This document shows positions 46,003-57,393 of a stretch of 64,000 nt of DNA, in pieces. A program made the position numbers and the translations under genes. This DNA is from Anaerolineae bacterium (GTDB lineage Bacteria > Chloroflexota > Anaerolineae > UBA4142 > SHND01). Position 1 is the first letter of the stretch. Each line of letters begins with the position of its first letter. A model generated the notes under the pieces. That model saw only the letters and a list, made by a program, of their open reading frames with translations, was not told the origin of the DNA and did no database searches. The DNA lies in contig JADZCJ010000002.1 of NCBI GenBank assembly GCA_020851635.1, positions 1 through 64,000 of the forward strand. The letters are read 5' to 3'.

Positions 46003-48549
46003 ATGAAAACCAAAATCGCAATCGTGTGCGCCTCGCTTTTCTTGACGCTCCTGACAGTTGCCTGCGGGAGAGCTGCGTCCGCGCGCACCTCGGTCCAATC
46101 CACCGCCGCCCACGCGCCAAACCGCGCTTCCGTCAACACTCTGACGCTTGCCACCCTGCCGCCGCTCGCGGCGGATATCAACGCCGAGCGCAACACACTG
46201 GCGCAGGCAACGACCATGCCGCTTGCCACAGAAACCCCGACAACCGAGCCAAAAGAGCCAGTCAGCACGCCCATCGCAAGTCCCACCTCGGATGTGCCGC
46301 AAACCTATATCGCGTTTGACGCGAATTTTCTTGCGCGACCCTGTCCCCTCTTTACAGGCGATGACGAAATACGCGCCTATGCTTGCGATTTTGGCGAGTA
46401 TTATATGCTGCACAAGCAGGCGACAACGCGCTATTCGTATTTTGATAAACAGTTTGTCGACGGTGTCATCGAGGCAACCGGTTATTTCAACAAGGGCAGC
46501 GGCAAATACGAATATGGGATCGTATTCCGCGCCAACACCGACGGCACCGCATACTATGTCTTTACCGTCACGAACGACGGTCGCTACAATGTCTCGCTCT
46601 ATCAGAATGAAAAATACACCGACCTGATTCCCTACACCAGCTCTTCCATCGTCACCATAGGCGACGACGAATGGAATACGTTCAAGGTCGTCATGCGCGG
46701 GAACCGCTTTGATTTTTATCTGAACGACCAATTCCTGGACACGGTGCGAGATGATGCGCTCAAGAGCGGCGTCGTCGGTCTCTTTTTCTACAACGACACG
46801 CCCGATACCGAGGTGGCGTTCGACCAACTCACCATTTCGACTTTCGAGCCGCCTGTCAGCGAGACCCCCTCACCGGACCAGACCAGCACCGCGCCCAACG
46901 CAAGCCCTACCCCGGGCGAGCCGGAAACCTTTGTCGCGTTCGACGCCGATTTCTTGAGCGATCCTTGTCCCCTCTTTGAGGGTGACAACGATGTGCGCGA
47001 ATATGGCTGTGACTTGGGCGAATACTATATGCTCCACAAACAGGCGACGACGCGCTATGCGTTTAACGACGCATCGTTTGTTGACGGAATCGTGCAAGCC
47101 GCCGGCTATTTCAACAAGGGCAGCGGCAAATACGAATATGGGATCGTATTTCGCGCCAGCACCGACGGCACTGCGTACTATGTCTTTACCGTCACAGACG
47201 ACGGCAAATACAACGCCGCAATATATCAGAATGAAAAATACACCGACCTGATTCCCTATACCAGCTCTTCCATCGTCAATACGGGTGAGGGCGAACGAAA
47301 CACCTTCAAGGTGATCATGCGCGGGAACCGCTTTGATTTTTATCTGAACGACCAATTCCTGGACACGGTGCGGGATGATGCGCTCGAGAGCGGCGTCGTC
47401 GGTCTCTTTTTCTACAACGACACGCCCGATACCGAGGTGGCGTTCGACCAACTCACCATTTCGACTTTCGAGCCGCCTGTCAGCGAGACCCCCTCACCGG
47501 ACCAGACGAGCACCGCGCCCAACGCAAGCCCCACCCCGGACGTGCCGGAAACCTTTGTCGCGTTCGACGCTGATTTCATGGGCGAACCTTGTCCCCTCTT
47601 TGAGGGCGACAACGATGTGCGCGCGTATGGTTGTGATTTTGGCGAATACTATATGCTCCACAAACAGGCGACAACACGGTATTCATATTACGATGTTGAC
47701 TATGCCGACGCCGTGATAGAGGCAAACGGTTATTTCCACGAAGGCAGCGGCAAATACGAATATGGGATCGTATTTCGCGCCAGCGCAGATGGCACCGCGT
47801 ACTATATCCTGGTCGTCACAGAGGACGGTCACTATAATGTCGCGCGCTATCAAGATAAAAAATATACCGACCTGATTCCTTACACCAGTTCTCCCATCGT
47901 CGCGACAGGCGTTGACAACGGAAATACCCTCAAAGTTGTCATGCGCGGCGACCGTTTTGATTTTTATCTGAACGACCAGTTTCTCGATACGGTCACAGAC
48001 GATGCGCTTGCAAGCGGGACAGCCGGGCTCTTTTTCTATAATGACACTGCCAATACCGAGGTGCGTTTCGACCAATTCACCATCTCGACCTTTTCACCGC
48101 CTCCGACCACCACCCCCGAACCCACCTCGCCCTCCGGGACTGCCACGCCGACCGCTCCGTCAGTCGCGCCAACCGCCGCCGTTCGTCCCGGAATCTATGT
48201 CACGGGTCTCCGTTTTGCGCCGGGGGCTCCAAAACGCGGTCAGCCGATGACGTTTTACGCAACGTTTCTCAACACGACCGGCAGAGACCAGAACTATAAA
48301 TGGCTGGTCGAGATTTGGGAGACAAACACCAACAAAAAGAATCCATACGGTCAAGCGGACCATCTCGAACAGCTGATTCCGACGGGCGCCAACGAACGCG
48401 CCACAGGCGACAGTTTCAAAGTAGCGGGAGGCGGTCCCTGTATCTCTTTTCGGGCGCATGTCGTCTTTGTGGATGACCAGGGGCGCCGCGTTCCATTTCT
48501 GCGGACCAACGGCGTCGAGCTTTGGGTCCCCTTTCAAGTGTGCCCCTGA
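46003..48549 (+). CDS. Lipoprotein with three tandem 208-residue repeats and C-terminal domain
   Basis: 848 residues. The lipoprotein signal IVCASLFLTLLTVAC ends at a lipobox Cys. Repeats start near residues 101, 308 and 516, each with CPLFxGDxxxR-Y-CD, a concanavalin/LamG-like core (GSGKYEYGIVFRA, RFDFYLNDQFLDTV, VGLFFYNDT) and a TSTAPNASPTP-type linker. This beta-sandwich fold, related to DUF1080/3-keto-disaccharide hydrolases, commonly binds sugars. The C-terminal 120 residues (GIYVTGLRFAPGAPKRGQPM onward) are an Ig-like domain. Repeats 1 and 2 are nearly identical in DNA over about 220 bp (46697-46917 and 47321-47541). Confidence 0.88.
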   Translation: MKTKIAIVCASLFLTLLTVACGRAASARTSVQSTAAHAPNRASVNTLTLATLPPLAADINAERNTLAQATTMPLATETPTTEPKEPVSTPIASPTSDVPQTYIAFDANFLARPCPLFTGDDEIRAYACDFGEYYMLHKQATTRYSYFDKQFVDGVIEATGYFNKGSGKYEYGIVFRANTDGTAYYVFTVTNDGRYNVSLYQNEKYTDLIPYTSSSIVTIGDDEWNTFKVVMRGNRFDFYLNDQFLDTVRDDALKSGVVGLFFYNDTPDTEVAFDQLTISTFEPPVSETPSPDQTSTAPNASPTPGEPETFVAFDADFLSDPCPLFEGDNDVREYGCDLGEYYMLHKQATTRYAFNDASFVDGIVQAAGYFNKGSGKYEYGIVFRASTDGTAYYVFTVTDDGKYNAAIYQNEKYTDLIPYTSSSIVNTGEGERNTFKVIMRGNRFDFYLNDQFLDTVRDDALESGVVGLFFYNDTPDTEVAFDQLTISTFEPPVSETPSPDQTSTAPNASPTPDVPETFVAFDADFMGEPCPLFEGDNDVRAYGCDFGEYYMLHKQATTRYSYYDVDYADAVIEANGYFHEGSGKYEYGIVFRASADGTAYYILVVTEDGHYNVARYQDKKYTDLIPYTSSPIVATGVDNGNTLKVVMRGDRFDFYLNDQFLDTVTDDALASGTAGLFFYNDTANTEVRFDQFTISTFSPPPTTTPEPTSPSGTATPTAPSVAPTAAVRPGIYVTGLRFAPGAPKRGQPMTFYATFLNTTGRDQNYKWLVEIWETNTNKKNPYGQADHLEQLIPTGANERATGDSFKVAGGGPCISFRAHVVFVDDQGRRVPFLRTNGVELWVPFQVCP

Positions 48550-48581: not shown

Positions 48582-48644
48582 ATGAGCAAAAAACAACGTA
48601 AACGGAACAAGCGCCAGGAAGAACAGAGAGGAATCGCCCTATGA
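48582..48644 (+). CDS. Very short basic ORF coupled to the cyclase gene
   Basis: A 20-codon frame, MSKKQRKRNKRQEEQRGIAL, starts at ATG 48582 and ends at TGA 48642-48644, overlapping the ATG of the cyclase gene. It contains GAGAGG close to that start, so it may simply place ribosomes at the next gene. It has 11 basic residues among its first 17. Existence as a peptide is unproven. Confidence 0.35.
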   Translation: MSKKQRKRNKRQEEQRGIAL

Positions 48645-50590
48645 AATGTTGGAATTGCGGTTTCGAAAATCCGCAAGGCGCAAAATTTTGTTCCAACTGC
48701 GGACAGGCACAGCAGCGCGCTTGCCCCAGCTGCGGCACGGTCAACCCTGCGAGCGCAAAATTTTGCTTTAACTGCGGCACAAACCTTCAACCGCAAGCGG
48801 CGGGCGCTCCGACTGGCGCGCCCCCGTCAGCGCGCACCCCATCCACGACCGGTGGAGCGCGTGAATCACTGGTCGAAAAATACATGACCAAAGAGGTTGC
48901 CGCCAAACTGGACGCCGCGCGCGATGTGCGCGCGGTCGAAGGCGAGCGCCGCATCGTCACCATTCTCTTTTGCGACGTCAAAGGGTCTACCGCGATGGCG
49001 GAACAACTGGACCCCGAAGAATGGGCAGAGATCATGAACAATGCGTTCGAGTATCTCATCAAGCCGGTCCACGATTATGAAGGCACGGTCGCGCGTCTCA
49101 TGGGGGACGCCATTCTTGCGTTCTTTGGCGCGCCGCTCGCGCACGAGGATGACCCGCAGCGCGCGATTCTGGCAGGATTGGAAATTATTGAAAACATCGA
49201 GCAGTACCGCGGCAAGATTCAGCAGCAGTACGGCATGGATTTTTCCGTGCGCGTCGGTTTGAATACAGGGCTCGTCGTCGTCGGCAATATCGGCAGTGAC
49301 TATAAATTCGAGTATACCGCCATGGGCGATGCCATTAACCTGGCGGCGCGCATGCAGAGCGCCGCCGAACCCAACTCGGTCTTTATCACCGAAAACACCT
49401 ATCGCCTTGTCCCTGCCCTCTTTGATTTCGAGGACAAGGGCTTGATGGAGGTCAAAGGCAAGACAGAGTCGGTCCACGTCTATCGCGTGCTGGATGCGCG
49501 CAAGGGCGCTATCAAAACGCGCGGCATCGCGGGGCTTGCCTCGCCGATGGTTGGTCGCCGCCGCGAGTCCGTCACGCTTCAGCAAATTGCCGACGACGTG
49601 AAAATGGGACACGGATCGAGCGTTGCCATTATCGGTGAAGCGGGTCTGGGCAAATCGCGGCTGATTGCCGAGTGGCGCAAAGCTGTTTTGTTGGAGGCGG
49701 GCGAGCAGCCCCTGCAATGGGTCGAGGGGCGCTGTCTCTCTTATGGCTCATCTATGGCGCACCATCTCAGCGCGGACGTCTTGCGCGCGCTGATTGGCGC
49801 GCCGGCGGGCGCGACCGAAGAAGAAACACACGCCATCCTCAAGACCGCGCTCGCAAACCTCTTTGCCGACGACCTCAAAGAAGTGTATCCATTTCTCGGG
49901 CACTTACTTGGCGTGAAACTGGAAGAGGATATGGCGGCACGCGTCAAATATTTGGACGGTCCCGCCCTCCAAGCCAAATACGTTGGCGCATACAAACGCT
50001 ATATCAAAGCGCGCGCCTCCATCTCGCCCTTGATCATTATTTGCGAAGACATTCACTGGGCGGACCCCTCATCGGTCGAGTTGTTATCGCAGGTCAACCC
50101 CATCGTCGCCGAAGCGCCCGTCGTCTTTGCGTTCGTCTCGCGTCCTGATAAAGATGCGCCGGGCTGGAAGCTCGTCACACAGGCGCGCGAAATCGCCGGC
50201 GCGGGCATGACCGAGCTGCATCTCGCGCCCCTCTCCGACAAGGACAGCCGGGAGCTGGTGAGCAACCTGCTTGAAATCGCATCGCTGCCCGCAAACGTGC
50301 GCGATCTGATCCTCGCCAAAGCCGAAGGCAATCCGTTTTTTGTCGAAGAAGTCATCCGCATGTTGATTGACCGCGGCAATCTGGTGCGCTCGGACGGCAG
50401 CTGGATCGTTGCCAAACCCATCAACACGATTGATATTCCCGATACGCTGCAGGGCGTGCTGATTGCGCGGATTGACCGTCTGCCGGAGGACGCCAAACGC
50501 GTCCTGCAAATCGCATCGGTCATTGGCAGAAAATTCCAGGTCAAGGTGTTGGAACAGGTGCTCGCCGCAGACCAGGAACGGAACGCGTAA
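48641..50590 (+). CDS. Class III adenylate/guanylate cyclase fused to a STAND ATPase, with double zinc ribbon
   Basis: 649 residues. Two zinc ribbons (C3/C6/C17/C20 and C28/C31/C42/C45). The cyclase domain (about 100-275) has metal Asp D112 in FCDVKGST, the second in LMGDAILAFFG, and transition-state Asn/Arg in AMGDAINLAARM. The STAND/AAA module (about 295-640) has Walker A GEAGLGKSRL (about 333) and Walker B LIIICEDIHWADPSS (about 466). Members of this family usually continue into TPRs in one chain. Here TAA stops the frame at 50588, and the TPR part follows in the same frame. Substrate base (ATP or GTP) cannot be fixed. Confidence 0.93.
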   Translation: MKCWNCGFENPQGAKFCSNCGQAQQRACPSCGTVNPASAKFCFNCGTNLQPQAAGAPTGAPPSARTPSTTGGARESLVEKYMTKEVAAKLDAARDVRAVEGERRIVTILFCDVKGSTAMAEQLDPEEWAEIMNNAFEYLIKPVHDYEGTVARLMGDAILAFFGAPLAHEDDPQRAILAGLEIIENIEQYRGKIQQQYGMDFSVRVGLNTGLVVVGNIGSDYKFEYTAMGDAINLAARMQSAAEPNSVFITENTYRLVPALFDFEDKGLMEVKGKTESVHVYRVLDARKGAIKTRGIAGLASPMVGRRRESVTLQQIADDVKMGHGSSVAIIGEAGLGKSRLIAEWRKAVLLEAGEQPLQWVEGRCLSYGSSMAHHLSADVLRALIGAPAGATEEETHAILKTALANLFADDLKEVYPFLGHLLGVKLEEDMAARVKYLDGPALQAKYVGAYKRYIKARASISPLIIICEDIHWADPSSVELLSQVNPIVAEAPVVFAFVSRPDKDAPGWKLVTQAREIAGAGMTELHLAPLSDKDSRELVSNLLEIASLPANVRDLILAKAEGNPFFVEEVIRMLIDRGNLVRSDGSWIVAKPINTIDIPDTLQGVLIARIDRLPEDAKRVLQIASVIGRKFQVKVLEQVLAADQERNA

Positions 50591-50632
50591 CAACTGAAAT
50601 CTGCAAGCACACGCGATAGTGAGTTGATCCGA

Positions 50633-52396
50633 ATGATTTCATCCGACAGCAAGCTCCTTCGACTCGAGAACGCCGACCTGATTCGTCGGCTGCTTGGATC
50701 GGATCTCGCCTATCAATTCAAGCACAACCTGATTCAAGAGTCGGCATACGAATCGCTCTTGCGCCATGATCGCCGGAACTTGCATCGCGCCACCGCGCGA
50801 GCGCTGGAAAACGCGTATCCGCAGGAATTGGACGGCAATGCCGCGCTGCTCGCCAAACACTATGCTGAAGCGGGCGATGAGGAAAAAACCTATGGCTATG
50901 CGCGCCGCGCCGGTGATGTCGCGCGACGTCTCAGCGCCTACCAAGAAGCCCTGATGCAATACGACACGGCAGCGCTGCTCGCGCCGCGCTTGCAGGTGCC
51001 CACCGCCGAGTTTGTCGAGCTGCACCAGGCGCGCGGTCGCACGCTGGAACTGATGGGCAAACACGACGACGCCAGAGAGGCATACCGCGCGCTGTATGAC
51101 CTCGGACACAAGCGAAACGACTCGCTAATCAAACTCGGCGCGCTCTTGGCGCTTGCAACCTTGCAGCTGTATCCCAACGAGACCCAAAACCTCCAAGCCG
51201 CGCTGGAAGCAAACCAGCAGGCACTAGAACTTGCGCGCGCAAGCGCCGACGCCGCGTCCGAAACACGCGCGCTCTGGAACATGGTCCTCTACGAGTACTT
51301 TTCGGGGCGCGCAAACGATTCGATCCGCTATGGCAATGAGGGGCTGGCGCTTGCCGACAAACACGGGCTGACCGAACTGCGCGCGTACATTCTCAACGAC
51401 ATGAGCCGCGCCATCGTATCTGCCGCATCAGTCCCGGATGCATTACGCACGCTCGAACAGGCGCGCGCCATCTGGACCGAAACACAGAACTTGCCCATGC
51501 TGGCTGACAATTTGGCTACGACATGCGAATTGTCGTTTATCAGCGGCGATCTTGGCGCGTTTGAAAGGCTCTATCAAGAGGCGGTTGACTTGTGCCACAC
51601 CATCGGTAATGACTGGAACCTGAGCTATGTGCAAGGCACACGCCTCCAGTTAAAGGCGTACCAGGGCGATTTCGAGTCCTTTGTGCGCGGAGTGGCTCAG
51701 GTCAAAAAACTGGCGCTGGCAAGCGGCTTTGGAGCCCGCATTTCCGCGAGCGTTATTTTGGAAGCCATGATGATGGGCGAGCTCGGCGCGCCCGCCGGAG
51801 GTTTGGCGCATCTTGAACACAACGCAACCCTCCATTCCTTTCAATTCATCGAGTTGTGGCGCTTTGGGATACAATCCTATCTTTACACCCTGCTCGGCGA
51901 GATGGAGCAAGCAAGCCGGGACCTTGCCCGGGCACGCGCCGGTCTCTTGCCCAACGACCTTTCCAATTATGGTCCGATCTTTATCGCTCTCTGCAGCGCC
52001 GAGTTGGATCTGGCTCTGGGCAACCCTGCCGCAGCTGTTCGCGAAACCGAACAGCCGATTCTCCGATTGCGCGCGGCGCATGTCAAATACCTCCTGCCCG
52101 AACTATTCATCTTGCGCACGCGAGGACTCTTGGAGCTTGGGCAGCACGACGCCGCGGAGCAGGACCTGCAGAACGCGGAAGAGGTTGCGCGCGCGATGCA
52201 GGACCGCCCCGGTCTCTGGCAGATCTATGCCTATCGCGCAAAACTCGAAACCATGCGCGGCAACGCGGAAGGGGCGCGCGCCGCGTGCCTCCAAGCGCGG
52301 GCGCTGCTAGAATGGATTGCCGAACATTCGCCGCAAGAATATCGTGATTCGTTTTTGGTCCGTCCGCTGGTGCAGTATGTCTTTGATGCAGCTTGA
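50633..52396 (+). CDS. TPR sensor-arm protein 1 (same reading frame as the cyclase/STAND gene)
   Basis: 587 residues. It begins at the place where the linker after the STAND module is normally found: LLRLENADLIRRLLGSDLAY then FKHNLIQESAYESLL and RHDRRNLHRATARALE, followed by about ten helical TPR-like hairpins. The C-terminus EHSPQEYRDSFL is typical of the family's closing segment. The frame is open upstream to the TAA at 50588, without frameshift. ATG 50633 is chosen because the three other arms also start about 10 codons before their RLE-type motif; TTG 50624 is an alternative. Confidence 0.85.
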   Translation: MISSDSKLLRLENADLIRRLLGSDLAYQFKHNLIQESAYESLLRHDRRNLHRATARALENAYPQELDGNAALLAKHYAEAGDEEKTYGYARRAGDVARRLSAYQEALMQYDTAALLAPRLQVPTAEFVELHQARGRTLELMGKHDDAREAYRALYDLGHKRNDSLIKLGALLALATLQLYPNETQNLQAALEANQQALELARASADAASETRALWNMVLYEYFSGRANDSIRYGNEGLALADKHGLTELRAYILNDMSRAIVSAASVPDALRTLEQARAIWTETQNLPMLADNLATTCELSFISGDLGAFERLYQEAVDLCHTIGNDWNLSYVQGTRLQLKAYQGDFESFVRGVAQVKKLALASGFGARISASVILEAMMMGELGAPAGGLAHLEHNATLHSFQFIELWRFGIQSYLYTLLGEMEQASRDLARARAGLLPNDLSNYGPIFIALCSAELDLALGNPAAAVRETEQPILRLRAAHVKYLLPELFILRTRGLLELGQHDAAEQDLQNAEEVARAMQDRPGLWQIYAYRAKLETMRGNAEGARAACLQARALLEWIAEHSPQEYRDSFLVRPLVQYVFDAA

Positions 52397-54134
52397 ACCT
52401 TCTCTCTTGCGCCTCGAATCCGGTGATTTGATTCGTCGCTTGCATGAAACAGACCCTGCTTTTCTTTTCAAGCAATCGCTCGTTCAGGACACGGTCCGCG
52501 AGTCTCTTTTACATCACGAACGCAAACGCCTGCACCGCCTGGTGGGACAGGCGTTGGAAGAGCTTTATCCCGAACGCCGCGTCGAGCTGGCGTCATTGCT
52601 GTGTCAGCATTTTTCTGCGGGGGGCGACGACGATAAAGCGCTCGAATACGCCGCGCTGGCGGGAGATGCCGCCGCGCGCATCAATGCCAACACCGAAGCC
52701 GTCGCGCACTATACCCGCGCGATCCGGGTGGCGGAACAACCGGGGCGTCCGGGAGCGCTTGTACAAGAGTTGTATCTCAAACGCGGGCGCGCCCTGGAAC
52801 TCGGAAACGATTTTGCCGCCGCGCTTGAAAACTATGATGCGCTGACAGAGCTGGCTTTCAGGCGGAATGATCGGCATATGGAGCTCGCTGCCTTGATGGC
52901 AAAGGGAACGATTCGTTCCATCCCCACCACAGCTTATGACATGGACCTTGCTTCTGTCCTGAACGACAATGCATTGGATTTGGCGCGCCAGCTGGGCGAC
53001 AAGTCCGCCGAGGCGACCATTTTATGGAACCGCATGCTCATGGAATCACGCGTGGGCACGAGTTTCTACACTGCCCTTGCCTATGGAGAGGAGGCGCTGC
53101 GGATTGCCCGTGAAAACAACCTGACCGAGCGCATTGCGTATCTGCTGAACGACATTTCGCCCCTGCTCGTATTCAAGGGTCAAGCCGAACTTGGCGAGCG
53201 GTACAATCTCGAAGCGCGCGACATGTGGATCGAATTTCAAAATCTCCCCATGCTCACCAGCAACCTGGGCTATGCCGTCATGATTCACCTTGCGGCGGGC
53301 AAGTATGATTTGGCAATTCAGGAATCTCAGCAGGCGCTTCGCATCAGTCGTGAAATAGACAACAAGTGGAACGAGGCGTTTTCGCAAGCGTGGGTTGGGG
53401 AAGCATACCTCGAACGGGGTGACATTGCGGCTGCCGAACGCGTCATGCTCGAGGCAATCGCCCTCGGCAAAGAGTATTTTCCACCCACACTGGTCATGAC
53501 CCGCAGCGATCTGGCGCGGCTTTATACCGAGTTGGGATTTCCCGAACGCGGCGCCCAGCTCGCCAACCAGGCGCTGGAGGTCGCATCCGCCAAATTTCTT
53601 GCCATTCGCTCGGTTGCTATCGGCGCTTTGGCGGACGCCTCTTTGGAGATGGGGATATTGGAACCGGTCCGCAAAATGCTGCCCGAAAAAATCGAGTTGA
53701 CAGATTTCATCGGGAACCCGTTGTTCGGCATTGACGTCGCCCGAAGCAAGATCCGGCTCCAACTTTTCGACCATGATTATCAAGGGGCGTTGACCGAGAC
53801 GAGTAAATTGCTCGAGTTTTTGTTCAAGAACAGCATTCGCCAGATGCAGCCAAATTTGCTCCTGCTCCGCGCGCGCGCGCTTTCGAGTCTCGATAGAGTG
53901 CCTGAGGCGGCGGACGACCTCTATCTGGCGCTCGACATTGCTCAGGCGATGGCGGCTCAATGGACGCTGTGGCAGATATTCGCCGCCCTGTCGCGGCTCG
54001 AAGCGCGGCGCGGCAATTTGGAACTCGCCGCCGATTTTCGCGCGCACACACAAACCCTGATCGCAAGTATTGCAGAGCGAACCCCGGAAGAATATCGCGC
54101 GCGCTTGAGGGCACGCGCGGCGCGCGAGCTATGA
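52377..54134 (+). CDS. TPR sensor-arm protein 2
   Basis: 585 residues. The start LLRLESGDLIRRLHETDPAF then FKQSLVQDTVRESLL and HHERKRLHRLVGQALEELYP parallels arm 1 block by block, followed by TPR-like repeats and the ending ERTPEEYRARL. ATG 52377 overlaps the end of arm 1 by 20 bases. No catalytic domain, signal peptide or membrane segment is present. As arm 2 carries the STAND-adjacent linker but no STAND module, it would have to act in trans with the upstream protein. This is inference. Confidence 0.85.
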   Translation: MSLMQLEPSLLRLESGDLIRRLHETDPAFLFKQSLVQDTVRESLLHHERKRLHRLVGQALEELYPERRVELASLLCQHFSAGGDDDKALEYAALAGDAAARINANTEAVAHYTRAIRVAEQPGRPGALVQELYLKRGRALELGNDFAAALENYDALTELAFRRNDRHMELAALMAKGTIRSIPTTAYDMDLASVLNDNALDLARQLGDKSAEATILWNRMLMESRVGTSFYTALAYGEEALRIARENNLTERIAYLLNDISPLLVFKGQAELGERYNLEARDMWIEFQNLPMLTSNLGYAVMIHLAAGKYDLAIQESQQALRISREIDNKWNEAFSQAWVGEAYLERGDIAAAERVMLEAIALGKEYFPPTLVMTRSDLARLYTELGFPERGAQLANQALEVASAKFLAIRSVAIGALADASLEMGILEPVRKMLPEKIELTDFIGNPLFGIDVARSKIRLQLFDHDYQGALTETSKLLEFLFKNSIRQMQPNLLLLRARALSSLDRVPEAADDLYLALDIAQAMAAQWTLWQIFAALSRLEARRGNLELAADFRAHTQTLIASIAERTPEEYRARLRARAAREL

Positions 54135-55939
54135 ATACCGAAATTCACCCTTCTCCGCCGCCCGCGTTTCCCCTCGCCGCCGCGCTGCGCGACATTCAAG
54201 CGGCGCAATTGATCGAGGATGGCGCAGAGAACGAACCGAGCTATTTGTTCAAGCACGCACTGGTCCAGGATACTGTCTATGCCTCCCTGATGCGACACGA
54301 CCGGCGACGCCTGCATCTCTTTGTTGCGCAAGCGTTCGAAAAAGCATATCCCGATCAGTTAGAAGACCTCGCGCCGCGGCTCGCCGAACATTTTGACCAA
54401 GCCGGCGAGATACGACGCGCCCTCTATTATTTCGAGCGCGCCGCCGAACATGCCGCCGCGCGTTATGCCAACCGGGAGGCGCTTGCTTTTTACACACGCG
54501 CCCTGGACGCGGCAACCGAGCTCAAGACTGATACGCGCGACACGCTCCATCGCGCCCGCGGCGTAATTTACGAACGCATCGGCAATTTTGACGCCGCCCG
54601 CGCGGATTTGGAAAACGCGCTCGCTCTCGCGCGCAGTGAGCAGGACGACCAAGCCGAGTGGCAGAGTCTGATTGACCTTGGGTTCGCATGGCTCGCGCGT
54701 GATTACGGGCGCGCCGGGGACTATTTTGAAAAGGCGCTCGAACTGGCGCGTGACAAGAATGACCGCGTCCGCATCGCCCACACTCTCAATCGCATCGGCA
54801 ACTGGTATATGAACAATGAGGATGTTCAACGCGCACACATGTATCATCAGGAGGCGTTGAATATTTTTCAACGCCTTCCGGATACGCGCGGGGTTGCCGA
54901 TACGTTCAACCTTCTGGGCATGACAGGGTTGATGAGCGGAGATTTTCAGACGGGCTTTGAACATTTTCACCAGGCAATTGATTTGTATCAAACGCTGGGC
55001 GATCGGCGAGGAATGGCAGAAGGTTGGATTTCGATGTATCTGCAAAATTCATCCCTGCAAAGTGACTCGCTCGTGCTGCCTCCCGGCGTCGGCTCGCCCG
55101 CCGACGGATTGGCGCATCTGCCCTCGCTCATGCAAGAGCTGGGTTGGCGCGCGGGCGAGGCCTTTGCGCTGTTGGTCTTGGGCGAAGGATTTGCGAGCGC
55201 GGGGGATTATGGGCGCGCGCTCGAACTTGAGATTCAAGCCATTGCGATTGCCGAAGAAATCGGGCACAAACAATGGCTTTCTGCCGCGACAATGATGCGC
55301 GGCGCAATTTTTGCCGACCTGCTCGATTTTCAAGCGGCGCAGCCGCACCTGGAACGCGCCCTCGAACTCGCGCACGAGATGGGTTCCCTGCATTGGACAC
55401 GCGTCGGCACGGGCTATCTCGCCTCGACCCTGATCGCCCAAAACGAATTGACTCGCGCGCAGCAAATTCTTGACCGTTATGTGCCCGAAGCGCTGCCCGC
55501 CCTCACGCTGGGGCAGCGTCAATCGTGGACGGCGCGCGCGGAATTGGCGCTGGCGCGACGCGACACCGAACGGACAATGGGCACACTCGACCATTTGCTG
55601 AAATTCGCCGCCAACCTCAAACCCGACGTCGTCATCCCTCGCCTCTGGATGCTGCGCGCGCTGACGTTCATGCAGATGGACCGCCCTGCCCAAGCCGAAA
55701 AATACATTCTCGCGGCGCGCGCCGACCTGGCACAACGCCCCCAAGACCGCTTGATGTGGCGCGTCATGTGCGTGCAAAGTCATTTGTATCACATGCAGGG
55801 GCGCCAAGCCGATGCCGACCTTGCGGCAAAAGCGGCGTTGGCAGTCGTGTATAAACTCGCGGCAACCGTGCCCGATCAGACTCTCCGCCAAACCTTTGCG
55901 CAGCGCGCTGCCACAATGATAAATACCCCCTCGCAATGA
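54131..55939 (+). CDS. TPR sensor-arm protein 3
   Basis: 602 residues. ATG 54131 overlaps the TGA of arm 2 (ATGA). N-terminal residues are Pro-rich (HPSPPPAFPLAAAL), then IQAAQLIEDGAENEPSYLFK, HALVQDTVYASLMRHDRRRL and HLFVAQAFEKAYPDQ, aligned with arms 1 and 2. TPR-like hairpins follow, for example ALNIFQRLPDTRGVADTFNL, and the end (TVPDQTLRQTFAQRA) resembles the family closing block. The open frame from 53960 is spurious upstream of the ATG. Confidence 0.85.
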   Translation: MNTEIHPSPPPAFPLAAALRDIQAAQLIEDGAENEPSYLFKHALVQDTVYASLMRHDRRRLHLFVAQAFEKAYPDQLEDLAPRLAEHFDQAGEIRRALYYFERAAEHAAARYANREALAFYTRALDAATELKTDTRDTLHRARGVIYERIGNFDAARADLENALALARSEQDDQAEWQSLIDLGFAWLARDYGRAGDYFEKALELARDKNDRVRIAHTLNRIGNWYMNNEDVQRAHMYHQEALNIFQRLPDTRGVADTFNLLGMTGLMSGDFQTGFEHFHQAIDLYQTLGDRRGMAEGWISMYLQNSSLQSDSLVLPPGVGSPADGLAHLPSLMQELGWRAGEAFALLVLGEGFASAGDYGRALELEIQAIAIAEEIGHKQWLSAATMMRGAIFADLLDFQAAQPHLERALELAHEMGSLHWTRVGTGYLASTLIAQNELTRAQQILDRYVPEALPALTLGQRQSWTARAELALARRDTERTMGTLDHLLKFAANLKPDVVIPRLWMLRALTFMQMDRPAQAEKYILAARADLAQRPQDRLMWRVMCVQSHLYHMQGRQADADLAAKAALAVVYKLAATVPDQTLRQTFAQRAATMINTPSQ

Positions 55940-57393
55940 ATCCTCTCGCGCTTTCGCTCGAACAGTTGGAAACGGCGCATTTGATTCGCGCGCTGACGGA
56001 TGCAGAGCACACGTATTTTTTTCGCCACATCCTTATTCAGGCAAGCGCGTACGACACCCTGCTCAAACAAGATCGCAAATTCCTGCACCGCGCCATTGCC
56101 GTGACCTTGGAGCAGCAAAGCCAGACTTCGGCAGACGAGCTGGCGCGGCACTATCGGGCAGCTGAAATGCCCGATCAAGCTGCGCGCTATTTCACGCTGG
56201 CAGGGCAGCGCGCCAGGTCTCGCTTTGAAAACAGTGAAGCGATCACATATTTTCGCGCCGCGCTCGACCAGGAGAAAAAACGGGCGCACCCTTCCACACA
56301 ATCCTTGCTCGAGCTCCATGAAAGTGTCGGTGATGTTCTTGCCATGATTGCCAAGTCGCAAGAGGCATTGACCGAGTATGCGGCGGGGCTGGACCAAGCG
56401 CAAGACGCGTTGACGCGAGCGCGTTTGACGCGCAAGATCGGCGACGTCCACCAGCTCTTGCTCGAATACGAAACGACGCGCCTTACCTACGAGCGTGCGC
56501 TGTCCGAATTGGGACCGCCCAACGAATCCCCATCGCGCGAGCGTTGGCACGAGTGGACTCAAATCATGGTCGGCGCAATGAACAACAACTATTGGCACGG
56601 GCACTGGGAGAACGTCAAGGTCTTGATCGAACAAGCAAGCCCGATCGTCACCCGCTATGGCACACCGCTGCTGCGCGCCATGTTTCTTGACCGCGTAGAA
56701 ATGATGCATGCGCGCCGCAATCGTTATGTGATGGATGACGATACGCGCCAACTGGTTGTGCTCATGCGAGAGGCGGCGGAAGAATCGGGGGACGCGCAGC
56801 AAATTCTCAATGCTCGTTTTTCGATGGCGTTCGTGGAGCTGCGACGGCGCGATTTGGATGCGGCTGAGAACGAATTTCTGTGGTCGATCCGGTACGCAGG
56901 GGAATTGGGGGCGGTGACCTATTCCCTCTGGTCCATGACATATCTCGCCGTCCTCTATCGCTGGCGCGGTGAGCCGGAGCGCGTGCGCGCGCTGGTCGAG
57001 ACGGCCCAAAAACTCGAGGGCGCCCTGGGAACGCCGTGGTATGCGGCAGGCTTGGCAAATCTGGCATGGATTGCGCTGCGCGAAAACAATGCGGCACAGG
57101 CGCGCCGGTTTGCGAACGATGCGCTGCAGATGTGGGAACCGTTCGGAGAGTTGTATCCGTTCAAGACGCTCGCGCTTTTTCCGCTGCTGGAATTGACGCG
57201 GCGGGAGCAGGATTCAGTGCAGGCAGTCCATTACATTTCGCAGATTCAAAAACCCTCGCAAGAAAAGCTGGACGACGGTCTGAATGACGCGCTCACCCGC
57301 GCTCAGGAGGCTCTGGTCGCGGGTGAGCCCGAACGCGGCTGGGGTCAACTAGAAATTGTGCGCAAGATCGCTTTCGCACAGGGCTTTATTTAA
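55936..57393 (+). CDS. TPR sensor-arm protein 4 (shorter)
   Basis: 485 residues. ATG 55936 overlaps the TGA of arm 3 (ATGA). The N-terminus again has the linker: SLEQLETAHLIRALTDAEHT, YFFRHILIQASAYDTLLKQD and RKFLHRAIAVTLEQQ. TPR-like repeats follow, but the protein is about 100 residues shorter than arms 1-3 and lacks the closing P-x-x-x-R-x-x-F block. Its stop codon directly abuts the stop of the convergent gene. Either a specialised arm or a truncated one. Confidence 0.84.
   Translation: MNPLALSLEQLETAHLIRALTDAEHTYFFRHILIQASAYDTLLKQDRKFLHRAIAVTLEQQSQTSADELARHYRAAEMPDQAARYFTLAGQRARSRFENSEAITYFRAALDQEKKRAHPSTQSLLELHESVGDVLAMIAKSQEALTEYAAGLDQAQDALTRARLTRKIGDVHQLLLEYETTRLTYERALSELGPPNESPSRERWHEWTQIMVGAMNNNYWHGHWENVKVLIEQASPIVTRYGTPLLRAMFLDRVEMMHARRNRYVMDDDTRQLVVLMREAAEESGDAQQILNARFSMAFVELRRRDLDAAENEFLWSIRYAGELGAVTYSLWSMTYLAVLYRWRGEPERVRALVETAQKLEGALGTPWYAAGLANLAWIALRENNAAQARRFANDALQMWEPFGELYPFKTLALFPLLELTRREQDSVQAVHYISQIQKPSQEKLDDGLNDALTRAQEALVAGEPERGWGQLEIVRKIAFAQGFI

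Follow-up and report, generated by a model that had tools for sequence, protein, structure and literature searches.

The window, by which we mean the whole stretch of DNA analysed (64,000 nucleotides), comes from a draft genome of 144 contigs, and its nearest relatives belong to Chloroflexota, several of these to Anaerolineae. A gene on its + strand (48641-50590, 649 aa), the head, encodes a double zinc ribbon, a class III cyclase domain, a STAND ATPase domain and the first half of a winged helix, and has orthologues that end at the identical C-terminal cut. The Pfam matches were Guanylate_cyc (9.8e-27), AAA_16 (2.6e-18) and a zinc ribbon; no TPR was detected in 48641-50590 by the same domain scan. 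The cyclase catalytic domain (PF00211, 48953-49471) retains its catalytic residues and the ATPase domain (PF13191, 49547-50095) covers residues 303-485 of the head. The C-terminal end (50486-50587, residues 327-360 of the AlphaFold2 model described below) supplies helices 1 and 2 of the winged helix and the strand between them, and is closed by a TAA stop (50588-50590) that marks the conserved cut position and is in frame with the next gene. Across 34 split heads the Walker A and B residues are invariant, and the metal-binding Asp pair and the transition-state Asn/Arg are kept in nearly all. Arg/Gln/Lys and Glu are present at the Lys/Asp substrate sites typical of adenylate cyclases; the nucleotide that the cyclase would use or produce cannot be told from these residues. 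With regard to Pycsar, where a cyclase is paired with a neighbouring effector that cyclic nucleotides activate, PADLOC PycC models matched the cyclase domain only (the window's flanking genes were outside that scan). Upstream of the head, 46003-48549 encodes a probably secreted protein that contains three repeats, almost identical to one another (DUF1583_N / 3-keto-disaccharide hydrolase-like domains), and homologues of this gene adjoin the head in two relatives, G003 and G001.

Four TPR genes, or arms, lie 3' of the head on the same + strand, none with a catalytic domain. Arm 1 (50633-52396; ATG 50633, alternatively TTG 50624) comprises the second half of the winged helix (about 50642-50752), a TPR-like region and a TPR superhelix, and has orthologues at L064 13129-14973 and L065 6534-8315. 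Arm 2 (52377-54134, from ATG 52377 or 52386) contains a MalT-like TPR region and has orthologues in G003, G004 and G005. Arm 3 (54131-55939), with orthologues in G001, G003, G004 and G005, overlaps arm 2 by ATGA; arm 4 (55936-57393) overlaps arm 3 in the same way, is the shortest at 485 aa and has no reciprocal-best orthologue among the genus members compared. Arms 1 and 2 overlap by about 20 nt, and the head is separated from arm 1 by the single TAA and 33-42 nt, with the reading frame unchanged. The first-pass annotation had described a cyclase-STAND gene devoid of TPRs, followed by four TPR genes without catalytic domains of their own, the last of them joined by ATGA overlaps. The coordinates, the domain scan and the two junctions (arm 2/3 and arm 3/4) all agree with this description.

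It was also proposed that each arm begins with one motif, F(K/R)H followed by DRRxLH. The block is indeed present in all arms, but the motif is looser than that: arm 2 has FKQ in place of FKH and so lacks the FxH histidine, and the second part reads DRRNLH, ERKRLH, DRRRLH and DRKFLH in the arms. A profile of the block scores array arms at roughly 115-163 bits, far above chance; the profile was built from array arms, and its scores are biased toward them.

In single-chain members of the family the block was said to follow the STAND module. This statement needs sharpening, since the cut actually falls inside the winged helix: according to the AlphaFold2 model, the N-terminal block that the arms share forms the latter half of this STAND domain and is not a separate linker. 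The model, of the STAND part of the head joined to arm 1 through a Gln in place of the TAA, drew on an alignment with 31 single-chain relatives and has a mean pLDDT of 90.6 and a pTM of 0.86. The stop is residue 361 of the model, between winged-helix helices 2 and 3. The head contributes helix 327-339, a short strand (342-344) and helix 345-363 as far as the stop; the arm contributes helix 379-388 and the hairpin 392-394/401-404. This order (helix-strand-helix-helix-hairpin) is that of a winged helix cut between its second and third helices. The segment directly after the stop has the lowest confidence (pLDDT 57-65). Structural alignments span the cut, to the NOD-arm region of MalT (8bob_C, Z 21.2), to PH0952 (6mfv_A, Z 20.0) and to Apaf-1 (Z 18.5), whereas a sequence-profile search of the PDB returned mainly TPR proteins and was uninformative on the winged helix. 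Directly after the wing, the arms carry the near-invariant FxH, at what we take to be the site of the ADP-contacting MHD-type histidine of Apaf-1 and NLRs. The same cut is apparent on TIGR03903, an NCBIfam profile of the single chain: positions 280-803 are matched by the head and positions from 806-810 onward by every arm, so that head and arms are, at the level of sequence, a seamless complement. Anatomy and cut position are thus observed. The model, however, was built as one joined chain and is no evidence for assembly in trans.

Since head and arm 1 are in frame with one TAA between them, the window alone could pass for a single interrupted gene. The split might then be an error or a decaying gene, the TAA interrupting a single chain and arms 2-4 being duplicates on their way to loss, for which a frameshifted arm in G001 could also be cited. 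We examined relatives for the cut. It is identical across Anaerolineae, elsewhere in Chloroflexota and in one Blastocatellia genome, yet the frames, spacers and inserted genes around it differ, and the split arrangement is kept in dozens of bacterial species. Among 60 relatives, short heads (62-88% identity, frames of 610-690 aa) were found in the window's genus, its order and a further family of the class. More short heads came from 396 surveyed genomes of that class, and 400 genomes of the phylum yielded short frames, mostly of 559-721 aa, in genera of other families, the junctions of which were not read one by one. A contig scan resulted in 78 named loci, in which a domain map separates single chains from split heads; most of the genomes compared are metagenome-assembled. 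An interrupted single gene was therefore rejected: 33 heads of one clade share the cut despite other frames, spacers and insertions. Decay of the arms was likewise rejected, as most genomes have intact arms, on which selection is purifying (dN/dS 0.11-0.26). The error or decay reading is largely refuted, and we consider it most improbable. At three loci, L049 (10276-11667), L050 (5728-6918) and L060 (11008-11628), all on the - strand, unrelated genes of the class I/II aminotransferase and DinB families are inserted between head and arm or between arms.

Twenty head-arm junctions overlap or abut: 18 are ATGA or GTGA, one is TTGA and one is TTGATG, where the ATG of the arm begins on the final base of the head stop. 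Simple pairs of one head and one arm mostly keep the 4-nt overlap (ATGA/GTGA). Overlaps of this form are the usual form of translational coupling, of which these junctions bear the signature. Two features, the -1 phase overlap that the 1:1 pairs strongly conserve at the cut and the unchanged frame across the TAA in the window, would also fit a programmed frameshift or stop read-through, by which the first arm would be made both separately and fused to the head. A slippery heptamer was present at only one of the 20 junctions (searched over the 45 nt up to the stop), on which ground programmed frameshifting was rejected; moreover, the usual coupling form accounts for ATGA/GTGA, and such a device would be unusable where an array has gaps of 100-1500 nt or genes inserted. 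This reading is thus very unlikely.

Trees of the head region unite 33 of the 34 split heads in one clade (SH-aLRT 100; FastTree 1.0). Two single chains, L063 and L082, fall within it and look like re-fused chains. The split head of L138 lies outside the main clade and, together with the similar loci L142-L145, indicates a putative second, independent fission at the identical site. These loci (L142-L145 and L138) belong to another family and have one arm per head; in L143, L145 and L138 a STAND-TPR gene of 1425-1479 aa is found further downstream. The tree of the winged-helix block, computed from about 120 columns, places 91 headless arms in a single clade (0.97) that also includes three single chains, among them the re-fusions L063 and L082. 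All trees were obtained by fast methods. Single chains and arms were intermixed in the whole-arm tree. The TPR bodies may be of mixed origin, but we make no claim from this tree because TPR alignments are unreliable. The head and arm of L106 are 93-94% identical to those of L105, although the contigs are labelled Acidobacteria gp7 and Chloroflexi, respectively, which reflects either a misbinned contig or a recent transfer.

Heads with several arms are not limited to the window. The search of Chloroflexota suggested in the first-pass annotation, for a TPR-less head followed by multiple arms, did recover such loci: within the window's order, one head is followed by three to seven arms. The counts per head are four in the window and in G014, three in G004, five in G003, six in G008 and G019, seven in G005 and five at the Blastocatellia locus L094. 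The outcome that would have refuted its modular head-plus-arms proposal, one full-length gene and decayed extra arms in relatives, did not materialise, since nearly all array arms are intact, G001 having one frameshifted arm. The proposal is strongly supported and extends well beyond the window. At L094 (8585-20165), the head consists of a Ser/Thr kinase, a zinc ribbon, a cyclase and a STAND domain, and is followed by five arms of ~500 aa.

Arms and heads are under purifying selection: dN/dS was 0.15-0.26 for array arms, 0.11-0.12 for the arms of 1:1 pairs and 0.10-0.16 for heads. When arms of one array are compared, identity is 41-74% in the winged-helix block and 26-39% in the remainder, and in each of the 105 pairs the block is better conserved (G005 entered this count with eight arms, one arm being present in two loci). 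The block belongs to a folded domain, and part of this excess conservation is thus expected anyway. Conservation, the excess of arms over heads and selection are direct observations. Between relatives, array heads are 90% identical and arms 58-83%; accelerated evolution of the arms as a special trait held only partly, because single-chain TPR regions also outpace their heads (70% vs 82% identity between the single chains of G003 and G005).

Arms are also observed away from any head. Four genus members (G002-G005) encode an arm of 467-479 aa with no cyclase-STAND gene nearby (L156 976-2379, - strand; L157 5917-7329, + strand; L158 6215-7654, + strand; L159 4688-6097, - strand). In L157 and L158 it sits after a gene for an iron-containing alcohol dehydrogenase, and in all four loci a gene for an MttB-family methyltransferase adjoins it or lies close by (neighbour domains were checked in L157). 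This genus-conserved orphan arm is a candidate sensor of an Fe-ADH/MttB-type pathway. In the genome of the window, a different orphan arm is present at C144:64505. Conversely, the split head of L081 has no arm within 10 kb, and headless arms are found on other contigs of its genome. If orphan arms work via their winged-helix half, they must work in trans.

These arrangements bear on what the additional arms do. They could be superfluous to a plain two-subunit receptor, in which one adjacent arm is the partner of the head and the others have drifted to different roles, as scaffolds or partners of other STAND proteins. Strict 1:1 pairs with a 4-nt overlap do occur in many lineages, and single-chain STAND proteins coexist in these genomes. 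Nevertheless, all arms retain the winged-helix half, useless without a head, and array arms and 1:1 arms belong to one block clade. Moreover, the Blastocatellia genome of L094 has five arms and one head, and no block match other than these arms was found in it at E 1e-12, so that no single-chain alternative partner was found there. We regard the plain two-subunit receptor as unlikely. Alternatively, some or all of the extra arms could be inhibitors with no sensor role, setting a threshold for the true partner. The region after the STAND winged helix does hold the closed ADP-bound form (PMC6468293) and arm 2 lacks the FxH histidine, but the arms retain full-length, diverged TPR superhelices and not a short inhibitory piece, and orphan arms are located in metabolic operons. 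Inhibition appears even less plausible.

We thus favour, as probable, a split STAND-cyclase receptor whose catalytic subunit is common to all arms, with docking, ligands and cyclase activity inferred. The head meets the ATPase-core criterion for a STAND protein with a TPR sensor (AAA_16; Walker motifs) and the catalytic-domain criterion for a class III nucleotide cyclase (PF00211; Asp pair, Asn/Arg). The winged-helix criterion is met only by head and arm jointly, the head alone being without the second half and everything beyond. In STAND proteins with TPR sensors, the closed ADP-bound form is held by contacts that the arm domain and the sensor make with the ATPase; an inducer breaks these contacts, ADP is swapped for ATP and the protein multimerises (PMC6468293). 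By extension, the head would provide the cyclase, the ATPase and the first half of the winged helix, and each arm would provide helix 3, the beta-hairpin wing, the near-invariant FxH, the TPR-like region and the TPR sensor. An arm would dock by completing the winged helix of the head, rebuilding an ADP-locked STAND. A ligand bound by the TPR sensor would open the ATPase and lead to oligomerisation; identical heads, whatever arms are attached, could then pair via their cyclase domains and so be activated, class III cyclases being active as dimers. Activation, the identity of the nucleotide, ADP/ATP exchange and oligomerisation are, like docking in trans, inferences. That arms assemble on the head is well motivated, by fold completion, orphan arms and unlinked heads and arms, but it has not been shown physically; that arms may compete for the head, as the first-pass annotation suggested, is conjecture. 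The split-receptor reading has points against it: the same genome has single-chain proteins of the family, which could in principle host the arms, arm 2 is without the FxH histidine, most of the genomes are metagenome-assembled, and folding alone would conserve the block.

In some relatives, neighbouring genes fit a cyclic-nucleotide output. Genes beside or near split heads encode proteins that combine a cNMP-binding domain with a histidine-kinase-type ATPase (L148 2479-4332, L149 7406-9037), and a cNMP-binding protein with a patatin phospholipase domain lies near a cyclase-STAND gene (L002 4606-6294). Long arms ending in a SpoIIE phosphatase domain are found at L089 (11584-14208) and L090 (10297-13125), so that arms in some lineages are predicted to carry output as well; the long arm of L134 (11155-13779), which was outside the domain scan, is a close homologue of the L089 arm. 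In those relatives only, the cNMP-binding neighbours and the SpoIIE arms point to outputs via cyclic-nucleotide receptors and perhaps partner switching.

The accepted picture of STAND proteins such as MalT, Apaf-1 and NLRs is of a single chain that carries a single sensor. The closest counterparts of the window's genes, single-chain cyclase-STAND-TPR proteins (L064, 1228 aa; L068, 1237 aa; L071, 1236 aa), have the domains and order of head plus arm, are often encoded directly upstream of a split head and, for most of those listed, are 41-51% identical to the window's head. However, they are one gene with one sensor per cyclase and an uncut winged helix; the one-polypeptide criterion of this family is not met in the window, where the arms are separate genes. 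The TOMM kinase/cyclase family of TIGR03903 is matched by head and arms in its cyclase-STAND-TPR part, and the L094 head also has a kinase, but the window's head has none and the score (227.6 bits) lies far below the cut-off of 705.75 bits. Group II ECF transporters combine one common module with many exchangeable binding subunits, some of them encoded elsewhere in the genome; by analogy, the hub logic is the same, although the proteins are unrelated and serve transport, not signalling. MalT and PH0952 resemble head plus arm, with a NOD containing a winged helix, an arm and a TPR sensor, and the model aligns with them (PMC6468293, PMC4381067), but they are single chains without a head common to several sensors, and the output of MalT is DNA binding. 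In NAIP/NLRC4 and the plant sensor-NRC helper networks, several sensors also act, by analogy, on a common STAND hub (PMC9975940); those sensors are whole STAND proteins, whereas a sensor of the window's type is half a winged helix and a TPR region without an ATPase. No split or one-head-many-arms STAND was found in the literature, within open-licence papers, PMC7159879 among them. The organisation is a real, conserved and apparently undescribed variant of a known receptor type.

With somewhat less assurance, though still on balance, we think that the head is a hub common to a repertoire of sensors, each completing its winged helix and some residing in distant metabolic operons. With one head used by every arm, several inputs would converge on one cyclic-nucleotide output, and we propose, from the sensors in distant operons, that a new input could be wired by adding an arm gene. 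If true, this would be a natural split-receptor system, in which STAND autoinhibition could be tested by mixing subunits, and a ready set of parts for sensor building. It would provide bacteria with a way to wire several inputs to one second messenger and, by analogy, may parallel, in bacteria, the sensor-helper networks known from plant and animal immunity.
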